This document shows positions 27,123 to 42,118 of a stretch of 64,000 nt of DNA, one piece after another; the stretch's first letter is position 1, and the number at the start of each line of letters is the position of its first letter. The DNA is from Psychrobacter sp. P2G3 (lineage in GTDB: Bacteria > Pseudomonadota > Gammaproteobacteria > Pseudomonadales > Moraxellaceae): the NCBI RefSeq assembly GCF_001593285.1, contig NZ_CP012529.1, positions 124,001 to 188,000 of the forward strand, written 5' to 3'. Position numbers and translations under genes: made by a program. The notes beneath the pieces were generated by a model. The model saw only the letters and a list, made by a program, of their open reading frames with translations. It was not told the DNA's origin and did no database searches.

Positions 27123-28120
<998 letters not shown>

Positions 28121-28121
<1 letters not shown>

Positions 28122-29293
28122 TGAATTTCATACCGTATGGTCGCCAAAATATCACTAAAGAAGACATTAATGCCGTTGTAGAGGTATTAGAATCGGATTT
28201 TCTTACTCAGGGGCCAAAGGTTCCTGAGTTTGAAAACTCTATCAAAGAGCAGTGCAATGTTGAATATGCTTTGGCAATGAATAGTGCAACATCTGCTTTG
28301 CATGTAGCATGTTTGGCTTTAGATGTTGGCAAAGACGACATTGTTTGGACGACACCTATTACATTCGTAGCGTCAGCAAACTGTGCCTTGTACTGTGGCG
28401 CTATTGTAGATTTTGTAGATATTAACCCTAAGACTTACAACTTATGTGCTCAAGCTTTAAGGGAAAAGCTGCAAATTGCTAAAGCAGAAGGGGAACTACC
28501 CAAAGTAGTTATTCCTGTACACTTATGTGGTCAGCCTTGTGATATGGAAGGGATTTATGAGCTTTCTAAAGAGTATGGCTTTTCGATTATCGAAGACGCA
28601 TCACACGCAATAGGTGGTAAGTACAAAGATGAGCCAATAGGTAATTGTCAGTATTCTGATATTACCATATTTAGCTTTCATCCAGTCAAAATTATTACGA
28701 CTGCTGAAGGTGGTGTTGCTACGACTAATAGTAAATATTTAGCACAAAAGATGGACTTGCTACGCAGTCATGGTATTACACGTGATTCTGAGTTGATGAC
28801 TAACGAACCAGATGGTTCTTGGTATTATCAACAAGTCATGCTTGGATTTAATTATCGCATGACTGAAATGCAGGCTGCATTAGGTGTATCACAAATAAAG
28901 CGTCTCAGCACTATCACTGATAAACGTCATCAGCTTGCCAAAAATTATGACAGCTTATTAGCTGAGCTACCCATAATAACGCCTTATCAGCATTCAGATG
29001 GATATTCGGGATTACATCTCTATGTAATACGTCTCAAAACCAACCAGATTCAAAAATCTCATAAAGAGGTTTTCGATGAGTTGCGGGCTGCTAATATTGG
29101 TGTAAATCTGCATTATATTCCAGTGCATTTACAGCCCTACTATCAGCAGAAACTAGGGTTTAAGATGGGCGACTTTCCTGAAGCGGAGTTATATTATTCT
29201 CAGGCGATTAGTTTGCCAATGTATCCCGATTTGACAGAAGAGCAGCAAGCTTATATCGCTCAAACTCTGAGGAGTATATTGAACCATGGCTAA
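28121..29293 (+). CDS. pseC: UDP-4-amino-4,6-dideoxy-N-acetyl-beta-L-altrosamine transaminase
   Basis: The 390-aa PLP aminotransferase of the DegT/DnrJ/EryC1 family adds the C4 amino group to the PseB product. Seen: FIPYGRQNITKEDINAVVEVL, the phosphate-binding NSATSALHVACLAL, EDASHAIGGKYKDEPIGNC, the PLP-Lys segment FSFHPVKIITTAEGGVATT (Lys near residue 189) and LGFNYRMTEMQAALG. Length and motifs fit PseC. It overlaps pseB by one base and pseF by eight. Confidence 0.96.
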
Positions 29294-29990
29294 TATTGCA
29301 GTCATTCCTGCACGAGGTGGAAGTAAAAGAATTCCAAGAAAAAATATAAAAGAGTTTTGTGATAAGCCTATCATTGCTTATGCTATAGAATCCGCTATCA
29401 ATAGTGGATGTTTTAGTGAAGTTGTAGTGTCTACTGATGATCACGAAATTGCACATATCGCAAAGAAATATGGAGCAAGCGTTCCATTTATTCGACCACA
29501 AGAAATTTCGGATGACTTCGTCGGAACTAATGCTGTAGTTTCGCACTGTTTAGATTGGTTTGAGGAAAAAGATATCGTCTTTGATTATGTATGTTGTATA
29601 TATGCTACAGCTGCATTTATTAACAAAAATATCATTCAATCGGGGTATCAGGCTATATGTTGTGAAGAGTATGACTATGCAGCTACCGTGACTAACTATT
29701 CAGCGCCTATTCAAAAGGCTATGTATATAGATGATGAAACTAGTACTCTGGTAATGCGCGAAAAAGCAGCTTCAGAGGCACGAAGTCAAGACTTACAACC
29801 TTTTTATCATGATGCTGGACAAATATATTGGTCTACACCTGAGTTCTTTAGAAAAGATGCTAGAGTTTTTTTAAATAGAGTCTATCCAATAGTAATACCA
29901 GAGTATTTAGCTCAAGATATTGATACTCCAAGTGATTGGATAATAGCTGAGGCATTATTTCAAACTTTAATAAAAGATAGTAACCTTTAA
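29286..29990 (+). CDS. pseF: Pseudaminic acid cytidylyltransferase
   Basis: The 234-aa enzyme activates Pse to CMP-Pse. It has the CMP-sialic acid synthetase N-terminus AVIPARGGSKRIPRKNIKEF (the RGGSKR loop binds CTP), STDDHEIAHIAKKYGASVPFIRP, CCIYATAAFI, and the metal/sugar region DAGQIYWSTPEFF. The closing DIDTPSDWIIAEAL is typical of PseF. The ATG at 29286 lies within pseC, and the stop overlaps the pseG start by one base (TAATG), so translation is probably coupled. Confidence 0.95.
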   Translation: MANIAVIPARGGSKRIPRKNIKEFCDKPIIAYAIESAINSGCFSEVVVSTDDHEIAHIAKKYGASVPFIRPQEISDDFVGTNAVVSHCLDWFEEKDIVFDYVCCIYATAAFINKNIIQSGYQAICCEEYDYAATVTNYSAPIQKAMYIDDETSTLVMREKAASEARSQDLQPFYHDAGQIYWSTPEFFRKDARVFLNRVYPIVIPEYLAQDIDTPSDWIIAEALFQTLIKDSNL

Positions 29991-31120
29991 TGAGTACATA
30001 TATTGCTTTTCGAGTAGATGCTTCTTCTGAAATTGGAACTGGGCATTTAGTGAGGTGTTTAACATTAGCTAAGAGGTATCTTGACAAAACCGATTATAAA
30101 ATTGTATTTATAACTAATGAATTGCCATCTACTTTGCTGAGCTTATTTGCTAATAAAAAGGTTAACTTGTTACAAATTGATGTCAAGCATATTAGAGAGA
30201 GACCAGTTTGTGAGAATTTAGTCAATAATTGGGAAGAGGATTTATTAGAGACAGTAAATATACTTAGCAGTAATAATATAAGAAAGGTAGACCTATTTGT
30301 TGTAGATCATTACGGTCTGGACTATAAATGGGAAGAAGGGATCAAAAGTATTTACGATACAAAAACTCTGATTATTGATGATTTAGCTAACCGGAAGCAC
30401 TCGGCAAACATCCTTCTTGATACAAACTTACATAATAATTCATCTGTAAGATATAAAGGATTAATAGGAATAGATGTATTGTGTTTGTTTGGCCCGTCTT
30501 TCGCATTATTGCGAGAAGAGTTTTTAGAGTATCACTCTCAGGTTAAAGTCTCTAATAAAAGCGTTATAGCAATGTTTGGTGGAAGTGACCCTACAGGAGA
30601 GTCATTTAAACTATTAGATGCAATTGTTGATTTCAATAATAAAGATTCAGATTTATTATCAGGGTTAAAAATATATGTTGTAGCAGGTAAGGCAAATAAG
30701 CATATAGAAAAGATTAAGCACTTCAAAACTTTGAACTTGCAAAGTGTAGAGATATTTGACTATATCGATAATGTGGCTGAGCGTATGGCAGAGTGTTCAT
30801 ACGCGATAGGTGCAGGTGGTACTTCAGTATGGGAGAGAATGTGTTTAGGTGTACAATCCTTTATAGTCTCTGTTGCTGAAAATCAACTCGAAGCCTCAAA
30901 GTACCTAGATAGTCTGGGATATGTATCATTTATAGGTGAATCAAATGAAATAGCTTCAAAGGATTATTTAGAAATATTATATACAATCGCAAAGTCTAAA
31001 AGTGATTCATTCCTGATTTCTGATCCAGAGCTACTAAAGCAGATAGTTCCAGGAAATGGGTGTGAGTTAGTAGTTAATAAGACTATAGAGTATTTGAATA
31101 GAAGTTATATACTTAATTGA
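29990..31120 (+). CDS. pseG: UDP-2,4-diacetamido-2,4,6-trideoxy-beta-L-altropyranose hydrolase
   Basis: PseG removes UDP from the diacetamido sugar before condensation. The 376-aa GT-B-like protein opens with FRVDASSEIGTGHLVRCLTLA, which contains the PseG GxGHxxR motif, then DHYGLDYKWE, LIIDDLANRKHSANILLDTN, MFGGSDPTGESFKLL, and YAIGAGGTSVWERMCLGVQS. At 376 aa it is longer than the ~280 aa Campylobacter form because of extra segments at about 60-100. It overlaps pseF and reaches the beginning of pseH. Confidence 0.95.
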   Translation: MSTYIAFRVDASSEIGTGHLVRCLTLAKRYLDKTDYKIVFITNELPSTLLSLFANKKVNLLQIDVKHIRERPVCENLVNNWEEDLLETVNILSSNNIRKVDLFVVDHYGLDYKWEEGIKSIYDTKTLIIDDLANRKHSANILLDTNLHNNSSVRYKGLIGIDVLCLFGPSFALLREEFLEYHSQVKVSNKSVIAMFGGSDPTGESFKLLDAIVDFNNKDSDLLSGLKIYVVAGKANKHIEKIKHFKTLNLQSVEIFDYIDNVAERMAECSYAIGAGGTSVWERMCLGVQSFIVSVAENQLEASKYLDSLGYVSFIGESNEIASKDYLEILYTIAKSKSDSFLISDPELLKQIVPGNGCELVVNKTIEYLNRSYILN

Positions 31121-31128
31121 GCAATGCT

Positions 31129-31719
31129 ATGAAATATCCAAAGAATGAGTTTAAACCTTTTACCTATGAGTTGCTTGAGCTAGTTCGTGGTTGGAGGAAT
31201 GAACCACGAATAAGAAATAATATGTATTCCACTGATATAATTGGTCGAGATCAACAGGTGGAGTGGTTTGAGAAAATGGTTGAGGACCCAAGTAGGGAGT
31301 ATTTTGTATATTTCCAAAACGATAAACCGATTGGCTGCTTAAGTTTTACATCTATAAATAATGAGGATTGTCAATGGGGATGCTATCTTGGAGAAGAGAG
31401 AGTTTGGCCTGGTTCAGGTATTATTTTAGCAGTAGCAGCTCTTGATTATGCTTTTAAAGGTATTGGTGTTGAGCTTCTAGAGGCCGAGGTTCTAGAGTTT
31501 AATAAGTCACCTCAACAAATGCATCAAACATTTGAGTATCCAGAATCTTATATTAAGGAAACTAATGCTATAAGAGATGGTAAACAAGTAAATGCTATAG
31601 TGTATAAATACTCGAGGGAAGCTTGGGAAAAAAATAGAGACAACGTACTTGATAAGTTCCCAATAAAGTTTAGACACGCGGCAAATCACATTTTCTTTAA
31701 GGGTAAGCTTTTATCTTAA
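31129..31719 (+). CDS. pseH: PseH-type GNAT N-acyltransferase
   Basis: A 196-aa GNAT-fold protein in the PseH position of the pathway, acylating the C4 amine of UDP-4-amino-sugar. Features: LLELVRGWRNEPRIRNNMYS (the family's W-R-N segment), FVYFQNDKPIGCLSF, WGCYLGEE, a degenerate acetyl-CoA loop region (WPGSGIILAVAALDYAF), and EAEVLEFNKSPQQMHQTFEY. The ATG at 31129 is preferred to a TTG at 31117 inside the pseG stop region. With an acyl carrier protein gene only 64 bases downstream, the donor could be an acyl-ACP instead of acetyl-CoA; that is inference. Confidence 0.88.
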   Translation: MKYPKNEFKPFTYELLELVRGWRNEPRIRNNMYSTDIIGRDQQVEWFEKMVEDPSREYFVYFQNDKPIGCLSFTSINNEDCQWGCYLGEERVWPGSGIILAVAALDYAFKGIGVELLEAEVLEFNKSPQQMHQTFEYPESYIKETNAIRDGKQVNAIVYKYSREAWEKNRDNVLDKFPIKFRHAANHIFFKGKLLS

Positions 31720-31783
31720 AGCGGGATAGGGCTATAGTATTATTAAATAACTGAATCAAAATCGTATAGATAGGAGCATGTAA

Positions 31784-32029
31784 ATGAACGACTTAAAGCA
31801 GCTTATTATTGATAAAATCAACGAGGTAGCTGAGCAAACGGATAGTGAACTTGTAGATAATCTGAATGATGAAACTGTCTTACTTGAGAGTGGTCTCTCG
31901 TCACTCGGTTTTGCAATTTTAGTGGCTACACTAGAAGAAGAGTTGGATTTTGACCCGTTTAGTGAAATGGATGATGCCGTTTACCCTCGTACATTAGCAG
32001 AATTTGTAAAGATATATGAAAGAAATTAA
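31784..32029 (+). CDS. Acyl carrier protein within the pse locus
   Basis: An 81-aa acidic, helical protein with the 4'-phosphopantetheine attachment motif in the form ESGLSSLGFAIL; Ser40 is the expected attachment site, and the usual preceding Asp is Ser39. This is a dedicated carrier, not the fatty-acid AcpP (whose motif is DSLDTVE). The 14-base overlap with the acyl ligase gene argues that the ligase loads this carrier. AGGAG stands 8 bases upstream of the ATG. Confidence 0.92.
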   Translation: MNDLKQLIIDKINEVAEQTDSELVDNLNDETVLLESGLSSLGFAILVATLEEELDFDPFSEMDDAVYPRTLAEFVKIYERN

Positions 32030-33374
32030 TCAATCAACAAAAAGCAATCTAGCCTTTCTTATAAGTAGGATAGAGTCTGATAGACCGTTAGTATCGTTCA
32101 ATGATAAGCTTATTGACGTTGGTGAGTTAATTGATTGTGCTCACGAATTGAGAGCTGGAACTCTCAAGGATCTATTTAATCAGGATGTAGCAGTCTGTAT
32201 TAGTGATTCGCTAACATATATTCAATCATTAATAGCTTTAGATGGCTTCGCTAAAAGTATTTTGATATTACCACCTTCCTTAAATAGTGATATAGCTGCA
32301 GCTTTAATAAAAGAAAGTAGTTGTGCTTATTTATTTGACGGAAAATCACTAAGTAATTTGAATGAGTCTGGTATACCTGAAACTAAGGTACAAACTGCAG
32401 CTTCAAACAAGCTTAAAACAAATTGGATTCTGGCTACGTCAGGTACTACTGGAACACCAAAGTTAATTTATCACACTTTAGGAAGTTTAATATCAACAAC
32501 AAAACAAGATATATCTAGAGGTAAAGATTACTGTTGGGGCTTAGTTTATGAACCGACAAGATTTGCAGGCCTACAAGTCCTATTACAATCTTTAATATCT
32601 GGTTCTAAGCTTGTTATTCCATCGTCTAACAATTTCAACGAGCAAATCTCTACCTATATTGAGGGAAAGGTAAACGCTCTCTCGGCAACCCCTTCATGGT
32701 GGCGTAAATTACTAATGCTACCCAATAGTAATTTAAGGTTAAAAGTCATTAGCATAGGTGGTGAAATTGTTGATCAGACTCTATTGAATCAGTTACTACA
32801 AACCTTTCAAAGCGCTAAAATCACTCATATTTATGCATCAACTGAAGCTGGAGTTGGTTTTTCAGTTAAAGATGGTAAAGCAGGCTTTCCTATCGAATGG
32901 TTAGAAGAAAGTACTGACTCAAAAGTAAAGCTTAAAGTTTCTAATGAGGGACATTTACTGATTAAACCTCGAGCAAGTGCGTCTGGTAAAGCAATGAATG
33001 AAAGAGTTAACGCTGACGGGTTTATTGATACGCAGGATCTAGTTCAAATAATAGACGACAGAGTTCTATTTAAAGGTAGAAGTAATGGAGCTATAAATAT
33101 TGGGGGTAGCAAAGTACAACCCGAAGAAGTCGAAGAAGTTATACGACACCATCCACAAGTTAAGGATGTTTTAGTTTTACCTAAAAAGAGTGCACTGATA
33201 GGCGAATTAGTACAAGCAAAAGTTGTCATAAAAGATGAATCTGTAGATAAAAAACTTCTAAAAAAGGAAATAATTGAGCTTTGTAAATCTTCTTTAGAAG
33301 GCTACAAAGTACCAGCATTGATATCTTATGTCGGTGCATTAGAGTATAACTCTACAGGCAAACTAATACGTTAA
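32016..33374 (+). CDS. AMP-dependent acyl ligase (ANL superfamily), probable ACP-loading
   Basis: The 452-aa adenylating enzyme has the P-loop LATSGTTGTPKL (about 139-150), the core motif IYASTEAGVGF near residue 272, the DTQDLVQIIDDRVLFKGRSNGAINIGG hinge region and a C-terminal catalytic Lys in STGKLIR, three residues from the end. It is shorter than usual ligases (500-550 aa), mostly at the N-terminus. It probably activates a small carboxylic acid as acyl-AMP and loads it on the neighbouring ACP. The acid cannot be identified from the sequence. Confidence 0.88.
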   Translation: MKEINQSTKSNLAFLISRIESDRPLVSFNDKLIDVGELIDCAHELRAGTLKDLFNQDVAVCISDSLTYIQSLIALDGFAKSILILPPSLNSDIAAALIKESSCAYLFDGKSLSNLNESGIPETKVQTAASNKLKTNWILATSGTTGTPKLIYHTLGSLISTTKQDISRGKDYCWGLVYEPTRFAGLQVLLQSLISGSKLVIPSSNNFNEQISTYIEGKVNALSATPSWWRKLLMLPNSNLRLKVISIGGEIVDQTLLNQLLQTFQSAKITHIYASTEAGVGFSVKDGKAGFPIEWLEESTDSKVKLKVSNEGHLLIKPRASASGKAMNERVNADGFIDTQDLVQIIDDRVLFKGRSNGAINIGGSKVQPEEVEEVIRHHPQVKDVLVLPKKSALIGELVQAKVVIKDESVDKKLLKKEIIELCKSSLEGYKVPALISYVGALEYNSTGKLIR

Positions 33375-33393
33375 TGAAGTAGAGGATATTGTT

Positions 33394-34119
33394 GTGAATG
33401 ATAAGACGGTAGTAGTTACTGGTGGTACTAAAGGTTTAGGGTTAGCAATTGTTGATCGGCTTTCTGAAGAAGGTTACACAGTTGTTGCGATAGGTCGTAC
33501 CCTCTCAGAAGATTTGGAGAAACTAATTCAGGTTTCTTCTAATATAAAGTTTATAAGTTATGATTTTTGTAACACTGATAATATTAAAAGTTTAGCTAAA
33601 GATATAAATAAAAAATATGGCCGAATTTACGGTCTTGTTAATAATGCTGCATTAGGAAATGATGGGATTCTTGCTACTATGCATGAGACAGATATTGAAG
33701 AAATGTTAAAAGTCAATATTCAAGCTCCTATTCTACTCACCAAGTATTTAGTAAGGTCTATGTTGTTAAACCAAGAAGGAAGAATTGTAAATATATCTTC
33801 TATAATTGCTTCAACAGGATTTAATGGATTGTCTGTATATGCAGCTTCCAAGGCTGCTTTAGCTGGGTTTACTAAATCATTGTCAAGAGAAGTTGGTAAG
33901 GCCAATATTACTGTGAATACAGTATCACCTGGTTATATGAAGACTAAGATGACTGAGGGTCTTGAAGGGGATAAGCTGAAAAGTATAGTTCGACGTAGTC
34001 CTCTCGGTAGGCTCGCGAGTGTAGAAGATGTTTCAGATGTCGTTTCTTTTTTATTGAAAGATAGCTCTAAAAGTATTACAGGGTCAAATATTACTGTAGA
34101 TGCAGGTAGTACTGCATAA
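33394..34119 (+). CDS. SDR-family oxidoreductase (FabG-like)
   Basis: A 241-aa classical short-chain dehydrogenase starting at GTG with AGAGGAT upstream. It has VVVTGGTKGLGLAIVDRL (TGxxxGxG), VNNAALGNDG, INISSIIASTGFNGLSVYAASKAAL with the Ser-Tyr-Lys catalytic set, and GYMKTKMTEG. It looks like a 3-oxoacyl-ACP reductase and ends 25 bases before pseI. With the ACP and ligase it forms a small acyl-processing cassette, where it might reduce a keto-acyl group on the carrier. A sugar-modifying role is the alternative. Confidence 0.88.
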   Translation: MNDKTVVVTGGTKGLGLAIVDRLSEEGYTVVAIGRTLSEDLEKLIQVSSNIKFISYDFCNTDNIKSLAKDINKKYGRIYGLVNNAALGNDGILATMHETDIEEMLKVNIQAPILLTKYLVRSMLLNQEGRIVNISSIIASTGFNGLSVYAASKAALAGFTKSLSREVGKANITVNTVSPGYMKTKMTEGLEGDKLKSIVRRSPLGRLASVEDVSDVVSFLLKDSSKSITGSNITVDAGSTA

Positions 34120-34144
34120 CATATTAGAAATTAGGATAAAAATA

Positions 34145-35182
34145 ATGAATATTTTAGGAAGAAAGATTGATGAAAATCATCCTCCATATATCATAGCAGA
34201 GATGTCGGCGAACCATAATGGCTCAATAGACAATGCAAAAAAAATAATATCAGAAGCTAAAAATTGTGGTGCAGACGCTGTTAAGTTACAAACTTATTCT
34301 GCTGAAACAATAACAATTAAGTCAGATAGGCCTGAGTTTTTAATCAAAGAAGGTCTTTGGGAGGGTCAAACATTATTTGATCTTTATAAAAGTGCTGAGA
34401 TGCCATGGGATTGGCATAAACCCTTATTTGAACATGCTAAAGAAGAAGGTATTACAATCTTTAGTAGTCCATTTGATTTTACGGCAGTTGATCTTCTTGA
34501 GGATTTAAATACGCCTGCTTATAAAATTGCTTCTTTTGAAGCGATTGATATACCACTTATAAAATACGTAGCCTCTACTAAAAAACCAATGATTATCTCA
34601 ACTGGTATGGCCAACCTAGAAGAAGTTGAGGAGGCTATAGAAGCAGCTAAAACGTTTGGTTGTCAAGATTTGGTGATTTTACATTGTGTGAGTGGTTACC
34701 CAGCTGACCCCCGAGATTACAATCTAAAAACGATACTCGATATGCAAAAAAGGTTTGGTGTAATGATTGGACTTTCTGATCATACGATTAGTAATACTAC
34801 AGCTATAGCTAGTGTGGCACTGGGGGTTAAAGTAATTGAAAAACACTTCACTATGGATAGGAATGGTGGGGGAGCTGATGACAGTTTTTCTTTAGAACCA
34901 CAGGATTTAAGACAGTTATGTAGTGAAAGTAAGATTGCTTGGGAGGCGTTAGGAAAGGTTAGTTACGGGAATAAAGGTGAAGAAAGTAAGAATTTACAAT
35001 TCCGTCGATCCCTGTATGTTGTGAAAGATATTGAAAAAGGTGAAAGGTTTACTTCTGAAAATGTTAGGTCTATTAGACCCGGGTTAGGTTTAAAACCAAA
35101 GTTTTATGACAAGATTATAGGTAGTAAAAGTAAAACCAACATTGAAAAAGGTACTCCGCTCTCTAAAGATCTCATATGTTGA
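34145..35182 (+). CDS. pseI: Pseudaminic acid synthase
   Basis: PseI condenses the 6-deoxy-diacetamido-altrose with phosphoenolpyruvate to give the nine-carbon Pse. The 345-aa protein has the NeuB TIM barrel (PPYIIAEMSANHNGSIDNAK, ADAVKLQTYSAETIT, YKIASFEAIDIPLIKYVAS, STGMANLEEVEEA, LHCVSGYPA, GLSDHTISNTTAIASVALG, VIEKHFTMDR) and the C-terminal SAF/antifreeze-like domain (RRSLYVVKDIEKGERFT). The YSAETIT segment is characteristic of PseI over NeuB. The start at 34145 gives the standard N-terminus MNILGRKID; an earlier ATG at 34100 lies inside the SDR gene. Confidence 0.95.
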   Translation: MNILGRKIDENHPPYIIAEMSANHNGSIDNAKKIISEAKNCGADAVKLQTYSAETITIKSDRPEFLIKEGLWEGQTLFDLYKSAEMPWDWHKPLFEHAKEEGITIFSSPFDFTAVDLLEDLNTPAYKIASFEAIDIPLIKYVASTKKPMIISTGMANLEEVEEAIEAAKTFGCQDLVILHCVSGYPADPRDYNLKTILDMQKRFGVMIGLSDHTISNTTAIASVALGVKVIEKHFTMDRNGGGADDSFSLEPQDLRQLCSESKIAWEALGKVSYGNKGEESKNLQFRRSLYVVKDIEKGERFTSENVRSIRPGLGLKPKFYDKIIGSKSKTNIEKGTPLSKDLIC

Positions 35183-35211
35183 GACTGACAACTACGTAGG
35201 TATATAACTCT

Positions 35212-38061
35212 GTGAAAAGAAAATTAAAGAAACTCTTCCAAAATCCTAGAAAATCTTTGGTAGATACTTATAAAAAAAGAAGCTTTCAGATGATTGATAC
35301 ATCTGAAAGCTTCTTGAAAATAAATTTTAGCTCAATTGATTTTAAATTAACTGAACTAATTCCAGACCTCAAGAAAAATGATAAAGAGTTATTAGCAGAT
35401 GTCTCAAACTCTATCATTAAACTAAATGAACATCAGTTCCAAAAATCATTTGAGATTTTACATTTTGAGCTGTTAAGTAGGGTACAGGATTTTGATAGCA
35501 ATGACTTTACTATTACGAGGTTTGACGGGTGGTGCTCGGCAGTTTGTAACCTGACAGGCATGTACTGTTACGCTAATCAGCGTTTTCTTGATCAAAAGGG
35601 ATTAATATTTCCTGATGAATACTATGATGATTTAGAGCAAACTCTGAAACTTGGTATTGAGAGTTTAATTCAAAAGCAAGGTCCGGTTAAAAACTTAGCG
35701 GAATGGCAGAAAATAGATGAATCCTATTACAAGAGTTCAAGAAAATCACTTGCAAACGCATTAAATTATTTAGCAAGAGAAGCCTATGTCTATTCTCGCT
35801 CATCATTTAAGGACGGTTACAGTCTTTTTCTAAATCGATATGACATATTAGCACATAGCTATACTTTTGCTAGTATAAATATTGTTGATGAAGATGACGA
35901 GCATTTAAAAAATCTCTATAAAATTCATGATGATATTAAAGTATATTTATCGAATAAGAGTAACCAGACGGTTGGGAAAGGATTATTCATTCAAAATCAA
36001 GACATATTTTTTAAAAAAATATTTTATGTTTTTGTGAACTTATCAGTAAAACTTTTTAAAACCGATGATGTTGTTAGATTTAAAGATTGGTTTTATATTC
36101 CAACTGCCAACGCTCCTTTTAAGGTTGATATAACACCTTTCTTACCCGTAATATTTAATCATATTCAAGAGTTTCCTTATTTTCATGAGCGCTTCTCTAC
36201 AGTAGTCGAAATAGAGTCTGTCTCTATGCGTCTATCAAAGATCAAATATAAAATTGATACAGGGCAGCTTGGATATATTAATATAGAACAGCCTTTTTTA
36301 GACAAAATTAATAACATGCATTTAGGCGATATATATAATTTACTTAATGTTTTGACGTTTGTTTCTTTTAAAGAAAAAATAAAAATATTGCCATCGATTA
36401 AAAAAAGACTGAGAAATTTAAAGTATAGTGATGGTCATAATATTAATTATTTAGCTAGAGTTATTCAAAGTCAAAACACTGAAAATGACATTGAAAATCA
36501 AAAGGCATTAAATGAAGCCTATGCTATATCTGTATCAGGGTTTGATAGTGAAGTGAGTAATTGCGATGACAGTGTATGTATAGAAAATAATAATGTTGTT
36601 TTATTTGCATTAAATCAATGCCGTATTACTGCTCCTATGATGTCTGGCATTTCCAAAATTCTTTATGACTCTAATTATAAGTTTTTTAATTTAGAAGAGC
36701 ATTATCAAATTAGTCATACAGTTCCTAAATGGCCATTTTCAGTAACATTATCTTCAGATTTTATGAGCTGTGTAGGAGTTCCTTCAGAACCAAAGGAGCT
36801 TTTAAACAAGGGTTGGTTAGTTGATCTAGAAAATTCAATTTTGAAGTTGGATGGTATCAATTATTACCAAGGGATGTATGAACGAGTTAGTAGAGTTCTT
36901 AAGGTGTTTAATGTGCCTTGGCACCTTCCAGTAGCTAAAACATATCTTAATATGTGGTTAATACAGATAGATAGAGTTATATATGCTCTAAAAGAAGTAC
37001 GTAAAGTTGCAATTGAGAAAAAATTAAAAATAATTTTAGTTAGCACTCAGGCGCATTTTGTGCCTTGGTTTGCGCTCAAAACATTTGCAGTCAATCATAG
37101 CAATGAATTTTCACATGTTACTTTAAGTTCAAGTTATGAGAATTGGAAGTCAAATGTTGGTGGTAGACCTTTATCAACTTTAACATTTATGAATAACTCC
37201 CAGCAAGCTTATCCTAGTATTCCTGCATTTGGAAGTTATAGTAGTTTTGAAACTTGGTATAAAGACTATTATATCGCCTTCAAAGATTATTGGGATTCTG
37301 AAAGACTTGTATTAACTTCGATGAAAAGATCTGGAACGGTAGAGCCAAGCTTGAAGACTGATGAATTATATTCAAGGCTGAAACTTGCAAAGGCGAGTGG
37401 TAAAAAAATATTTTGTGCTATAGGTAAAATACCTTATGATTTAGCCGTACCTTATCAAGGAGGACCTGCACATAATGATATGGGAGACTGGTTAAATCAT
37501 TCAGTTGAAACTATTGAAAATAGTGATAATTTATTGCTAATTAAACCTCATCCGCATGAATTAAAAACTGAAATTTCTGGTAAGCCAATTGAAGGCTTCT
37601 TGGATATGATTAAGAGTAAAGACTCTCTTAGAAATACAGTGCTTTTACCTCATCTGGGTGTGAATTTACAAGATCTCTTCGAATACGTAGATGTATTTAT
37701 ATGTTGGAATGGTTCATCAATAGCAGAGTTAGGTGCACAAGGCAGGAAGGTCATAGCTTGCGATGACTGGGCTAAATACAACTATCCTATAGATGTTTAT
37801 CTACCAAAGAATAGACCTCATTATTGCAATATACTAGAAGGAAAGGTTGAAGTAGAAATGAGTTCCGAGTTCTTTGAAAAAAGTGAGGCTTATACAGTTT
37901 ATCTTACTCAAGCACCATTTGCATTAAAATATAAATTCGCTACACGCTCTTCAACAAATATTAGGTTTAATGAGGCTAAAATTCAATTAAAAGCTTTTAA
38001 TGAAATTGGTTTTAAAAAATTAGCAGTTAGAAGTGATGAAATACTACAGTGTTTTTCGTAG
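35212..38061 (+). CDS. Large capsule-type glycosyltransferase candidate with unknown N-terminal half
   Basis: A 949-aa protein starting at GTG, last gene of the pse strand. The C-terminal half looks like a GT-B capsule synthesis enzyme of the KpsS/KpsC class: an N-lobe at about 465-690 (NNNVVLFALNQCR...) and a C-lobe at 730-900 with LLLIKPHPHELK (near residue 776) and CWNGSSIAELGAQGRKVIA (near 833). Such enzymes use CMP-activated ulosonic acids, so transfer of Pse is plausible. Residues 1-440 are Lys/Ile/Asn-rich and helical and match nothing I recognise. There is no signal peptide or membrane segment, nor the Maf (DUF115) motifs of flagellin Pse transferases. Codon use is markedly A+T-rich. 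Confidence 0.65.
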   Translation: MKRKLKKLFQNPRKSLVDTYKKRSFQMIDTSESFLKINFSSIDFKLTELIPDLKKNDKELLADVSNSIIKLNEHQFQKSFEILHFELLSRVQDFDSNDFTITRFDGWCSAVCNLTGMYCYANQRFLDQKGLIFPDEYYDDLEQTLKLGIESLIQKQGPVKNLAEWQKIDESYYKSSRKSLANALNYLAREAYVYSRSSFKDGYSLFLNRYDILAHSYTFASINIVDEDDEHLKNLYKIHDDIKVYLSNKSNQTVGKGLFIQNQDIFFKKIFYVFVNLSVKLFKTDDVVRFKDWFYIPTANAPFKVDITPFLPVIFNHIQEFPYFHERFSTVVEIESVSMRLSKIKYKIDTGQLGYINIEQPFLDKINNMHLGDIYNLLNVLTFVSFKEKIKILPSIKKRLRNLKYSDGHNINYLARVIQSQNTENDIENQKALNEAYAISVSGFDSEVSNCDDSVCIENNNVVLFALNQCRITAPMMSGISKILYDSNYKFFNLEEHYQISHTVPKWPFSVTLSSDFMSCVGVPSEPKELLNKGWLVDLENSILKLDGINYYQGMYERVSRVLKVFNVPWHLPVAKTYLNMWLIQIDRVIYALKEVRKVAIEKKLKIILVSTQAHFVPWFALKTFAVNHSNEFSHVTLSSSYENWKSNVGGRPLSTLTFMNNSQQAYPSIPAFGSYSSFETWYKDYYIAFKDYWDSERLVLTSMKRSGTVEPSLKTDELYSRLKLAKASGKKIFCAIGKIPYDLAVPYQGGPAHNDMGDWLNHSVETIENSDNLLLIKPHPHELKTEISGKPIEGFLDMIKSKDSLRNTVLLPHLGVNLQDLFEYVDVFICWNGSSIAELGAQGRKVIACDDWAKYNYPIDVYLPKNRPHYCNILEGKVEVEMSSEFFEKSEAYTVYLTQAPFALKYKFATRSSTNIRFNEAKIQLKAFNEIGFKKLAVRSDEILQCFS

Positions 38062-40066: not shown

Positions 40067-40915
40067 TTAAGAATCTTTCTTATTAATCAAGATGCCTAGG
40101 TTTATTGGATTTTGATAATCTGTTATTGACGATTGAGTGGATGGTGTTGAAATCTTTCTGAACTCATGATGTAAGTCTATAGCTGAATCTTCTAATGATG
40201 CAATTACTCCTTTAACCTTCAATTCTTCTAACTGAGAGACAAAGATTTCCGGATTTAAGAAGTCTAAGCCTTTAAAGTCTGTATATTTATATTTCCACCA
40301 TTCCGACGATAGAAGATTTTCAATCAAGTCATCACTAAACCTATATTTTTTAATTACTGCGGGTGAACCTGCTACTACTGCATAAGGTGGAACATCTTTA
40401 GTAACAACAGACCTAGCTGCTATTACCGCGCCATTGCCTATAGTAACACCTCTTTTTAAAAGAACACCCTCACCAATCCACACATCATTACCAATGGTGG
40501 CAAAGGCGAAGTTTATTTTTAGTCCAGGAGGCTTTTTTGGAAAATCTATGCTGATATCTTTTTCAAATATTCCAAATGGTGCAGCTCTCGAGTAACAGAA
40601 ACCACTCATACTTAAGCGATCGACGGGGTGGCTTGACCCCATAATCTTTACATTTTCTGCGATAGCACAATAACGTCCTATTTTCAAATCTTGAGGTGGG
40701 AAATAGCTTTTTGTATAAGAGAATGAGCCAACCGAACCTAATCTTGGTCCAACGAAAATACCAGAATAAGGTTCAATTAGGGCTTTTCCTGTAGTATTGT
40801 AAGGTTTGCCAATCTTAAGCCAAGAACTAGAATAGTTTCCTTTAGAATTTAAATAAACTTTATGCTTTATTAACAAGTCCATATGAGTTTGCTCAAGAGT
40901 AATTATACTGCTCAT
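40067..40915 (-). CDS. CatB-type hexapeptide-repeat O-acetyltransferase
   Basis: A 282-aa left-handed beta-helix acyltransferase. Hexapeptide-type turns run from about residue 70 to 190: [21 protein letters not shown] with the catalytic His, [56 protein letters not shown]. This is the xenobiotic/CatB subgroup, which in polysaccharide loci usually O- or N-acetylates sugars. An ~75-residue N-terminal part and an ~80-residue C-terminal tail are additions to the core. It is followed on the same strand by the TPR protein gene (44-base gap). The substrate is unknown. Confidence 0.85.
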
Positions 40916-41128: not shown

Positions 41129-42118
41129 TTAACTTATTAATAGCACATAATAAATAGTTAGATTGAACAAGACATGCCGAAGGTGCTTTATTCTTATCTC
41201 ATTCTCATCCTCTGTTAACCCCCAACCATAATAAAACGGTCGCCCTAATACGGTGACCTTTTTTCCTCTGAGTAATGCCTCAAACCCACCTAATGAAGTA
41301 ATCGTATAGACATGATCAATTGTCTCTAAAGCATCCACTAAATGAATAGATTGGATGAGTATAAGACAATCTAACTCAGTGAGCGTGTTGATAAGAGATG
41401 GGTCATTAAGGGTCATTGGATGCGGTTTGATTATGATCTGCGCCTCAGGATTTTCTTCAATGGCTTTATTGACTACATTAAGCAGCGTAATGCCAATGCC
41501 GCCACCGTATTTCAATGAATCATCATGTGGTACCTGTCCTAATACCAACACTCGCTTCTTATTCTTAACCCCATATATTGGTGCGACATCCACATAGGGC
41601 TGATGATTGTATTTGCTCACACGTTTTGATACGTAATAATCGAGCATCTCCTGTGCTAATGCCTCATCATAACCGTCCTGCTCAAAGTCAAAATTGGCAA
41701 TTAAATCTGTTAAATCGTTTGGTCGAGTGGTATCAAAGTAGGGCGCTTGACTGTCCATGACGATAGATAATGGCGGAGCACCGCTCTCATCGTCAGGGCC
41801 TGAGCGAATAAAGCCATCTTCCAAAAAAAACACATCTAAATCTTGTTCACGTATATAGTCAATGAAATAATCAGGTGCTTTATAACCCCAGATGTAAATA
41901 ACGGGATTGACGCGCTTGATAAAGGGCTTTAACCATAGCTCAAAGTAACGTTTATTAAAATGTCGCTGGATTTGAATATGCGCTTGCTCCAATACCCAGT
42001 CCCCAACGATATCTTGCCAAGGTAGCATACCGACTACTAACGCTAGACGCTGCTTTGGCTGGCGATAGTGCTTATAATAGCCTAATAACAGTGGCTGGAT
42101 ATAAGAATTGAATTTCAT
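41129..42118 (-). CDS. KpsC-like capsule polysaccharide synthesis/export protein (single module)
   Basis: A 329-aa protein of the Capsule_synth class (KpsC/KpsS, Kdo-type transferases). It has FFLEDGFIRSGPDDESGAPPLS, the nucleotide-binding VLVLGQVPHDDSLKYGGG, IIIKPHPMTL and the C-terminal signature FEALLRGKKVTVLGRPFYYGWGLTEDE. Full KpsC has two such modules (about 670 aa); this is one. It ends about 28 residues after GWGLTEDE, where relatives usually continue with a Pro/Tyr-rich tail, so C-terminal loss is possible. It is divergent from galE. A role in adding an ulosonic-acid linker or residue to a glycan is inferred. Confidence 0.75.
   Translation of the reverse strand: MKFNSYIQPLLLGYYKHYRQPKQRLALVVGMLPWQDIVGDWVLEQAHIQIQRHFNKRYFELWLKPFIKRVNPVIYIWGYKAPDYFIDYIREQDLDVFFLEDGFIRSGPDDESGAPPLSIVMDSQAPYFDTTRPNDLTDLIANFDFEQDGYDEALAQEMLDYYVSKRVSKYNHQPYVDVAPIYGVKNKKRVLVLGQVPHDDSLKYGGGIGITLLNVVNKAIEENPEAQIIIKPHPMTLNDPSLINTLTELDCLILIQSIHLVDALETIDHVYTITSLGGFEALLRGKKVTVLGRPFYYGWGLTEDENEIRIKHLRHVLFNLTIYYVLLIS

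Follow-up and report, generated by a model that had tools for sequence, protein, structure and literature searches.

What might three genes, for an acyl carrier protein (ACP), an adenylate-forming ligase of the ANL family and a short-chain dehydrogenase/reductase (SDR), be doing among the pseudaminic acid (Pse) genes of Psychrobacter sp. P2G3? They lie in a stretch of 64,000 nucleotides (contig NZ_CP012529.1, positions 124,001 to 188,000), the whole of which we call the window, where the gene order at 27123-35182 on the plus strand is pseB, C, F, G, H, ACP, ANL, SDR, pseI. The original prediction, made from the letters of the window alone, placed the trio between pseH and pseI within a complete set of six CMP-Pse genes, with the ANL gene overlapping that for the ACP by 14 bases. 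This is confirmed: the PseB, C, F, G, H and I products each score above their NCBIfam equivalog cut-offs, and the open reading frame (ORF) coordinates of the three agree with that layout.

We propose that the trio probably serves as an acyl-donor cassette devoted to amino-sugar N-acylation, through which Pse would receive an acyl group other than acetyl on N7. The same three genes recur, in the same order, beside N-acyltransferases of two unrelated folds, and the PseH of the window belongs to a clade of cassette-linked PseH proteins; from this we infer the individual catalytic steps, the direction in which the acyl group flows and the role of PseH as its acceptor from the ACP.

Recurrence of the trio

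The trio is found by pseH and pseI in other genomes when gene neighbourhoods are searched, and one locus (L129), from another family than P2G3, repeats the window order exactly (PseG-PseH-ACP-ANL-SDR-PseI); its 16 kb contig also carries a flagellin gene. We read 18 loci of Gammaproteobacteria and Campylobacterota, 13 of them gammaproteobacterial (the window, L013, L042-L045 and L125-L131) and five from Campylobacterota (L002, L003 and L016-L018), together with ten of 13 hits in another class of the phylum (L046-L055, the trio genomes G1557, G1513 and G1249 lying outside this reading) and three plasmids (L019-L021). The relative order ACP-ANL-SDR is identical in every trio locus read, and that the same three genes keep it in such distant genomes is more than chance.

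Though rare, the enzyme set recurs. Within the genus, the trio ANL was found in 1 of 105 genomes, that of P2G3 itself only; for the ACP the count is 1 of 57 relatives, and P2G3 is once more the one. The ANL was found at E<=1e-30 in 2 of the 369 genomes of the class sample, and at 1e-40 in 1 of 82 genomes in the genus of G420 and in 4 of 298 in the phylum of G425, the source of L003, a record named Sulfuricurvum. A profile, A4, of nine trio ACPs, with the ACP of L020 left out at 27% identity, matched 4/390 genomes of the order, 18/398 of the phylum and 9/187 of the order of G1558. These genome sets overlap (G000, G420, G1415 and G1558 are counted in several) and include P2G3 or the centre genome; one genome (G1320) has an ACP match and no ANL or SDR on its 9.5 kb contig.

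The earlier description of this enzyme set as unusual is not supported, as it recurs and has a precedent in the literature. In Aeromonas, the group II flagellin glycosylation islands have, among their pse genes, luxE, luxC and genes described as encoding an AMP-dependent synthetase, an ACP and a 3-oxoacyl-ACP reductase (PMC7874193). The likeness is one of three functions, drawn from gene descriptions, and the Aeromonas islands differ in having luxE and luxC, many glycosyltransferases and a link to flagella; in the Pfam scan of the ten products encoded at 27123-38061, neither LuxE nor LuxC was hit.

Among the 18 gammaproteobacterial and Campylobacterota loci, 14 have Pse- or Neu/Leg-type genes, two a borderline PseH and two dTDP-3-amino-sugar genes. 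PseI with PseG, or PseI alone, is found in ten (the window, L013, L042-L045 and L128-L131), with pseI about 4 kb off and on the opposite strand in L013, while L127, a contig of 3.8 kb, has a PseH (110.8 bits) adjoining a full trio. L003 encodes NeuC (389 bits, cut-off 236), and L016 and L018 a NeuB-type synthase that scores 518 and 529 bits against the NeuB/NnaB cut-off of 400 and does not reach that for PseI. The two borderline loci, L002 and L017, have a PseH-like GNAT just under the cut-off (91.0 and 92.8 against 93.1 bits), with no NeuB match within 20 kb in L017.

In 10/18 loci (the window, L042, L045, L127-L131, L002 and L017) a PseH-type GNAT lies directly 5' of the ACP; seven of these exceed the 93.1-bit cut-off, and those below it are L002, L017 and L042 (72.3 bits). 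An N-acyltransferase of the second fold, a beta-helix acyltransferase, adjoins the trio in L016, L013, L125 and L126. In the last two, where FdtA scores 167 and 175 bits and RmlA-like, RmlB-like and DegT aminotransferase genes are also present, the trio lies between FdtA and this acyltransferase, which adjoins the SDR (L125:5945-10513 and L126:5952-10521); the acyltransferases of these two loci score best to the acyl-ACP-using LpxA/LpxD families, at 85-91 bits against cut-offs above 200. Fuc3N with a 4-hydroxybutanoyl group is known from Pseudoalteromonas (PMC3210612), which may be of interest beside the pairing of trio and FdtA in L125 and L126. A protein of 267 to 270 residues follows the SDR in L003, L018 and L043, with GNAT matches of 31, 20 and 20 bits (cut-off 25), and in L044 a single gene lies between pseH and that for the ACP, while the SDR is followed by an Antibiotic_NAT protein. 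Sugar deacetylation may also be encoded nearby: PIG-L deacetylases occur in L042, L043, L002, L003, L016 and L018 (three of the six checked with Pfam), and DUF4910 in L044.

In the stretches fetched for the ten trios of the other class, the only matches to Pse or Neu/Leg references are those of L047 and L048 to a nucleotidyltransferase (54-58 bits), so the cassette has other uses. By eye, the neighbours in L046-L055 include further ligases, acyl-CoA dehydrogenase-like genes and CDP-glucose-type sugar genes. In two of the three loci on plasmids, L019 and L021, a gene for a hexapeptide acyltransferase precedes the ACP, and no Pse gene is annotated.

A PseH clade linked to the trio

The window PseH and seven other trio-linked PseH proteins form a clade (support 95/98) whose cofactor loop reads WPGSG in place of K/R-G-x-G; the residue before the first loop Gly is Pro in 8/8 members and Lys or Arg in 13/13 of the outside PseH proteins that keep GxG. 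In the trees the other class is represented by L046, L047, L049, L050, L051, L053 and L055. The window PseH scores 30-61 bits to eight PseH proteins of its own genus and 131-159 bits to those of L045 and L127-L131; for PseB, C, F and I, the scores to loci of the genus are at least as high as those to trio loci. Of the other genomes in the genus, eight encode a PseH above cut-off and no trio ANL, and in two trio-less loci of the genus (L093 and L094) pseH overlaps pseI. Four genus genomes (L087-L090) hold a different Pse-type locus, with formyltransferase-like and PIG-L-like genes around pseI and no trio.

A structure model of the window PseH (pLDDT 93) has the GNAT fold, with two helices after residue 166. 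Its best Foldseek match is H. pylori PseH (4ri1), by Z it ties among SpeG, PseH and others, and it does not distinguish CoA from ACP as donor. For another sugar GNAT, FdhC (PDB 5ktc, 16% identity), a structure is available with CoA and the 3-hydroxybutanoyl-Fuc3N product bound.

Acinetobacter baumannii loci with psaG/H offer a precedent, as 3-hydroxybutanoyl on N7 of Pse (Pse5Ac7Hb) is predicted or found for them (PMC6586298). They share with our proposal a non-acetyl N7 acyl group on Pse, but there the PseH-like protein P0179, which we infer to be PsaH, is fused to MaoC, whereas the window PseH (200 aa) has no MaoC/hot-dog domain in Pfam and NCBIfam scans. A similar fusion is encoded in L044 (6685-7599, plus strand), alongside the trio, Antibiotic_NAT and DUF4910; its PseH part is joined at the C-terminus to a hot-dog domain of MaoC/HadB-like type, and 70 of its 76 database hits list MaoC (PF01575), and one of these hits, from A. 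baumannii, represents 70 member sequences. This suggests that the PseH-MaoC fusion is a second route by which a hydroxyacyl donor reaches PseH.

The trio proteins and starter-unit cassettes

A search of plasmids with MupS, the SDR of mupirocin synthesis, led to pTML1, where genes annotated as ligase, SDR and ACP lie together; we take these to be TmlQ, TmlS and TacpD of the thiomarinol cassette. In mupirocin synthesis MupQ, MupS and MacpD make the starter, 3-hydroxypropionyl-ACP, from malonyl-CoA, while the thiomarinol chain is primed from 4-hydroxybutanoyl (both PMC10098928). The mupirocin genes of Pseudomonas fluorescens are the same set of ANL, SDR and ACP, of which MupS alone was compared by sequence, and they feed a polyketide synthase module, MmpF, where the trio would feed an amino-sugar acyltransferase. 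The window shares with such cassettes the contiguity of its ANL, ACP and SDR genes. In pTML1, however, the order is ANL-SDR-ACP and not ACP-ANL-SDR, the ACP is longer (the TacpD gene has 336 bases) than that of the window, the A4 motif of the ligase is DHIGG where the trio has R-F-A-G, and the next gene encodes a polyketide synthase where the window has pseI. A layout resembling that of mupirocin, with a ketoacyl-ACP synthase (KS) after the cassette, is seen in L020 (9501-12832; Azospirillum brasilense p3), where a divergent ACP-ANL-SDR is followed by KS III, with pseI and flagellin near.

The window SDR has MupS as its best PDB match (170 bits, the next at 148), and a trio-SDR profile gives 268 bits to TmlS, 241 to MupS and 207 to the best FabG. 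It keeps both the catalytic S-Y-K and TGxxxGxG. The original prediction of a FabG-like reductase was right as to family, but the protein falls short of the FabG equivalogs (205 against 298 bits for TIGR01830, its best, and 181 against 332 for PRK05653.1-1), and in the tree trio SDRs lie apart from the clade of an SDR from the same genome (L097) and FabG 4m8s. Twenty trio SDRs form one clade (99/99), and MupS, TmlS, L113 and L114 another (96/96), with the L020 SDR outside both; this tree gives no support to membership of the trio SDRs in the MupS clade. It leaves out 8 of 15 own-genome SDR loci, the window copy being counted apart, and one ORF appears in it twice, as L102 and L103. An Arg-Arg pair, followed mostly by (S/T)-P-L, is common to the gammaproteobacterial and Campylobacterota trio SDRs, MupS and TmlS and is not found in two FabG-type rows; trio SDRs of the other class mostly have no first Arg of this pair.

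The ANL has the usual adenylation motifs. Its profile, built from trio proteins, scores 194 bits to TmlQ and 160-176 to two related plasmid ANLs, against 116 for the best PDB ANL (MenE) and about 30 for two unrelated ANLs; TmlQ thus scores above every PDB ANL, as TmlS and MupS score above all other PDB chains with the SDR profile. Over 308 residues the window ANL and TmlQ share 32% identity. Five further clusters of ANL proteins (P0001-P0005) are 88-94% identical to it over their full length. An apparent defect, TQD for TGD, was rejected as such because it recurs in L043, P0015, P0072, L113 and L114. Arg182 is found in 34 of 35 aligned rows (26 from trio loci and nine further relatives from the database) and is His in TmlQ and its two relatives; the trio also lies outside the MupS/TmlS clade, and its acid is not inferable from that of TmlQ.

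The window ACP (81 aa) is 47-65% identical to eight of the nine other trio ACPs aligned, L020 being the ninth. It keeps the phosphopantetheine Ser, in LSSL, with SSL where those nine have DSL. An inactive ACP was considered on this account, a view weakened by the cassette ACPs of pTML1 (TSL) and two other plasmids, which also have no Asp before the Ser. To the trio-ACP profile TacpD scores only 19.7 bits. Judged by its sequences, the trio would work like a starter-unit cassette but outside the mupirocin/thiomarinol clade.

A route to N-acylated pseudaminic acid and its alternatives

In the scheme that we favour, the ANL would adenylate a short carboxylic acid and load it onto the phosphopantetheine arm of the cassette ACP, where the SDR would then reduce it, a short hydroxyacyl-ACP (C3-C4) being the most likely outcome. 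In place of the acetyl group of acetyl-CoA, this acyl group would be what the trio-type PseH transfers onto the 4-amino position of UDP-4-amino-4,6-dideoxy-L-AltNAc, after which PseG, PseI and PseF would give CMP-Pse5Ac7-acyl, bound for a surface glycan. Candidate acyl groups are (R)-3-hydroxybutanoyl, 4-hydroxybutanoyl, 3-hydroxypropanoyl and lactoyl. That ligase, ACP, reductase and PseH act together in this way, as was first suggested from the window with PseH or another acyltransferase as user, is supported by association: the PseH-type GNAT 5' of the trio, the trio-linked PseH clade, and nearest characterised ANL and SDR relatives that serve hydroxyacyl starters. The reduction of a 3-keto to a 3-hydroxy group, given as an example in the original prediction, becomes one of several options, the mupirocin starter being made from malonyl-CoA (PMC10098928). 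We found no publication that ties an ACP-ANL-SDR cassette to N-acylation by PseH, in a search that covered few subscription papers and top matches only.

N7 is the simplest acylation site, since no deacetylase is found among the ten scanned products; we keep exchange at N5 open, given the PIG-L genes in six trio loci and DUF4910 in one. The cassette could thus make an acyl-ACP for some other enzyme, by re-acylation of N5 after deacetylation or by O-acylation of Pse or another residue, with PseH keeping acetyl-CoA, an explanation which we consider unlikely though not negligible. The flagellin locus of Campylobacter jejuni includes Cj1295, whose domain we assume to be DUF4910; a ligase-ACP pair of this species is presumably Cj1307/Cj1308, for which a literature search returned nothing. 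Cj1295, described as having an aminopeptidase-like domain, is needed for 5-(2,3-di-O-methylglyceroyl) Pse, and the study that reports this proposes deacylation at N5 (PMC3068675); the acyl group of Pse is likewise non-acetyl, but it is on N5 and Cj1295-dependent. An ACP gene is also reported beside pse genes in Campylobacter (PMC11878206). The capsule of Psychrobacter marincola contains Pse that bears (R)-lactoyl at N5 and acetyl at N7 (PMC7281560), a precedent for non-acetyl Pse which we do not take to settle the acyl group of P2G3, and a hexapeptide transferase at window 40067-40915 could serve as the other enzyme. Such a role would, however, leave the membership of the window PseH in the trio-linked clade unexplained, and the ten products of 27123-38061 include no deacetylase or DUF4910 protein, the remaining window ORFs having been read by eye only.

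It seems improbable to us that the trio merely hitchhikes or has begun to decay, takes no action on the sugar and leaves the strain with Pse5Ac7Ac. Its presence in a single genome of the genus, an ACP without the usual Asp, and the other genes that adjoin the trios of the other class would fit such an origin, but each of the three ORFs is uninterrupted and keeps its catalytic motifs, the close ANL clusters are full length and a trio-type PseH adjoins the trio. We give still less credence to the trio feeding a fatty-acid-like or lipid-linked glycan decoration, as the authors of the Aeromonas study suggest in the liposugar component of their luxE- and luxC-bearing group II set (PMC7874193), and as KS III after the Azospirillum trio might also indicate. 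Neither a KS nor any other chain-elongation gene is present among the ten at 27123-38061 whose products were scanned, the top-scoring relatives of known function act on C3-C4 starters, and the Aeromonas genes are likened to the trio by description and not by sequence homology.

Returning to a dedicated donor for N-acylation, we also put forward, more tentatively, a portable acyl-ACP donor module: one ACP-ANL-SDR cassette would serve at least three sugar routes (Pse, Neu/Leg-type and dTDP-3-amino-6-deoxyhexose), beside the N-acyltransferase of each, and the PseH branch found with it may have switched its donor from acetyl-CoA to acyl-ACP. Bacterial nonulosonic acids and amino sugars may bear hydroxybutanoyl, lactoyl or glyceroyl groups, which alter recognition by antibodies, lectins and phages, and for many such groups the acyl-donor genes are still to be assigned. 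A recognisable set of three genes, together with the PseH subfamily that goes with it, would allow glycan N-acylation to be predicted from sequence, would supply enzymes for installing non-acetyl acyl groups on such sugars, and would link the starter-unit chemistry of antibiotics to that of surface sugars. A portable module, if true, would give the hydroxyacyl groups on surface sugars of bacteria one shared genetic origin, and the recurrence of the trio beside several sugar pathways makes the source of such decorations testable.

The Psychrobacter sp. P2G3 locus

The P2G3 genome comprises 3.37 Mb in 4 contigs. The Pse genes and the trio lie in a low-G+C island between sucCD and galE (Table 1); G+C is 0.33-0.39 in the pse genes and, matching them, 0.35-0.37 in the trio, with 0.41-0.49 in sucC, galE and pgi. 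The gaps between pseH and ACP, ANL and SDR, and SDR and pseI are 64, 19 and 25 bases, the last measured to the ATG at 34145, which is more plausibly the start of pseI than 34100, where the longest ORF begins. No terminator-like site on the plus strand was seen in the gaps between pseH and pseI.

Table 1. Genes of the Pse locus in the window, with their matches to family models
Feature	Position	Strand	Match
pseB, UDP-GlcNAc 4,6-dehydratase (inverting)	27123..28121	+	TIGR03589 542 bits, cut-off 408
pseC, UDP-4-amino-sugar transaminase	28121..29293	+	TIGR03588 565 bits, cut-off 424
pseF, CMP-Pse synthetase	29286..29990	+	TIGR03584 289 bits, cut-off 206
pseG, UDP-sugar hydrolase	29990..31120	+	TIGR03590 238 bits, cut-off 154
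pseH, GNAT N-acyltransferase, trio-linked clade	31117..31719	+	TIGR03585 129 bits, cut-off 93
ACP	31784..32029	+	PP-binding 20.4 bits, cut-off 20.8
ANL adenylate-forming ligase	32016..33374	+	PF00501, PF13193
SDR reductase, trio subfamily	33394..34119	+	PF13561, PF00106
pseI, pseudaminic acid synthase	34145..35182	+	TIGR03586 512 bits, cut-off 340
949-aa protein 3' of pseI, candidate glycosyltransferase	35212..38061	+	no Pfam or NCBIfam match

The 949-aa protein matches, at 170 bits, a protein of 1152 aa encoded close to the L044 trio, and that protein has a marginal match to Capsule_synth (20.2, cut-off 20). We regard the 949-aa protein as a candidate glycosyltransferase, possibly the Pse transferase.

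A second polysaccharide locus of the P2G3 genome (L095; G000:C1:855000-874900) has, by eye, Wzx/Wzy-, UDP-sugar- and glycosyltransferase-like genes, and its PseH-like GNAT scores 56 bits, under the PseH cut-off. In the window, adjoining galE, a minus-strand gene at 41129-42118 encodes a protein of 329 aa with a partial match to the Capsule_synth model (PF05159, 123.5 bits), and may be a short or partial gene of the KpsC/KpsS type.

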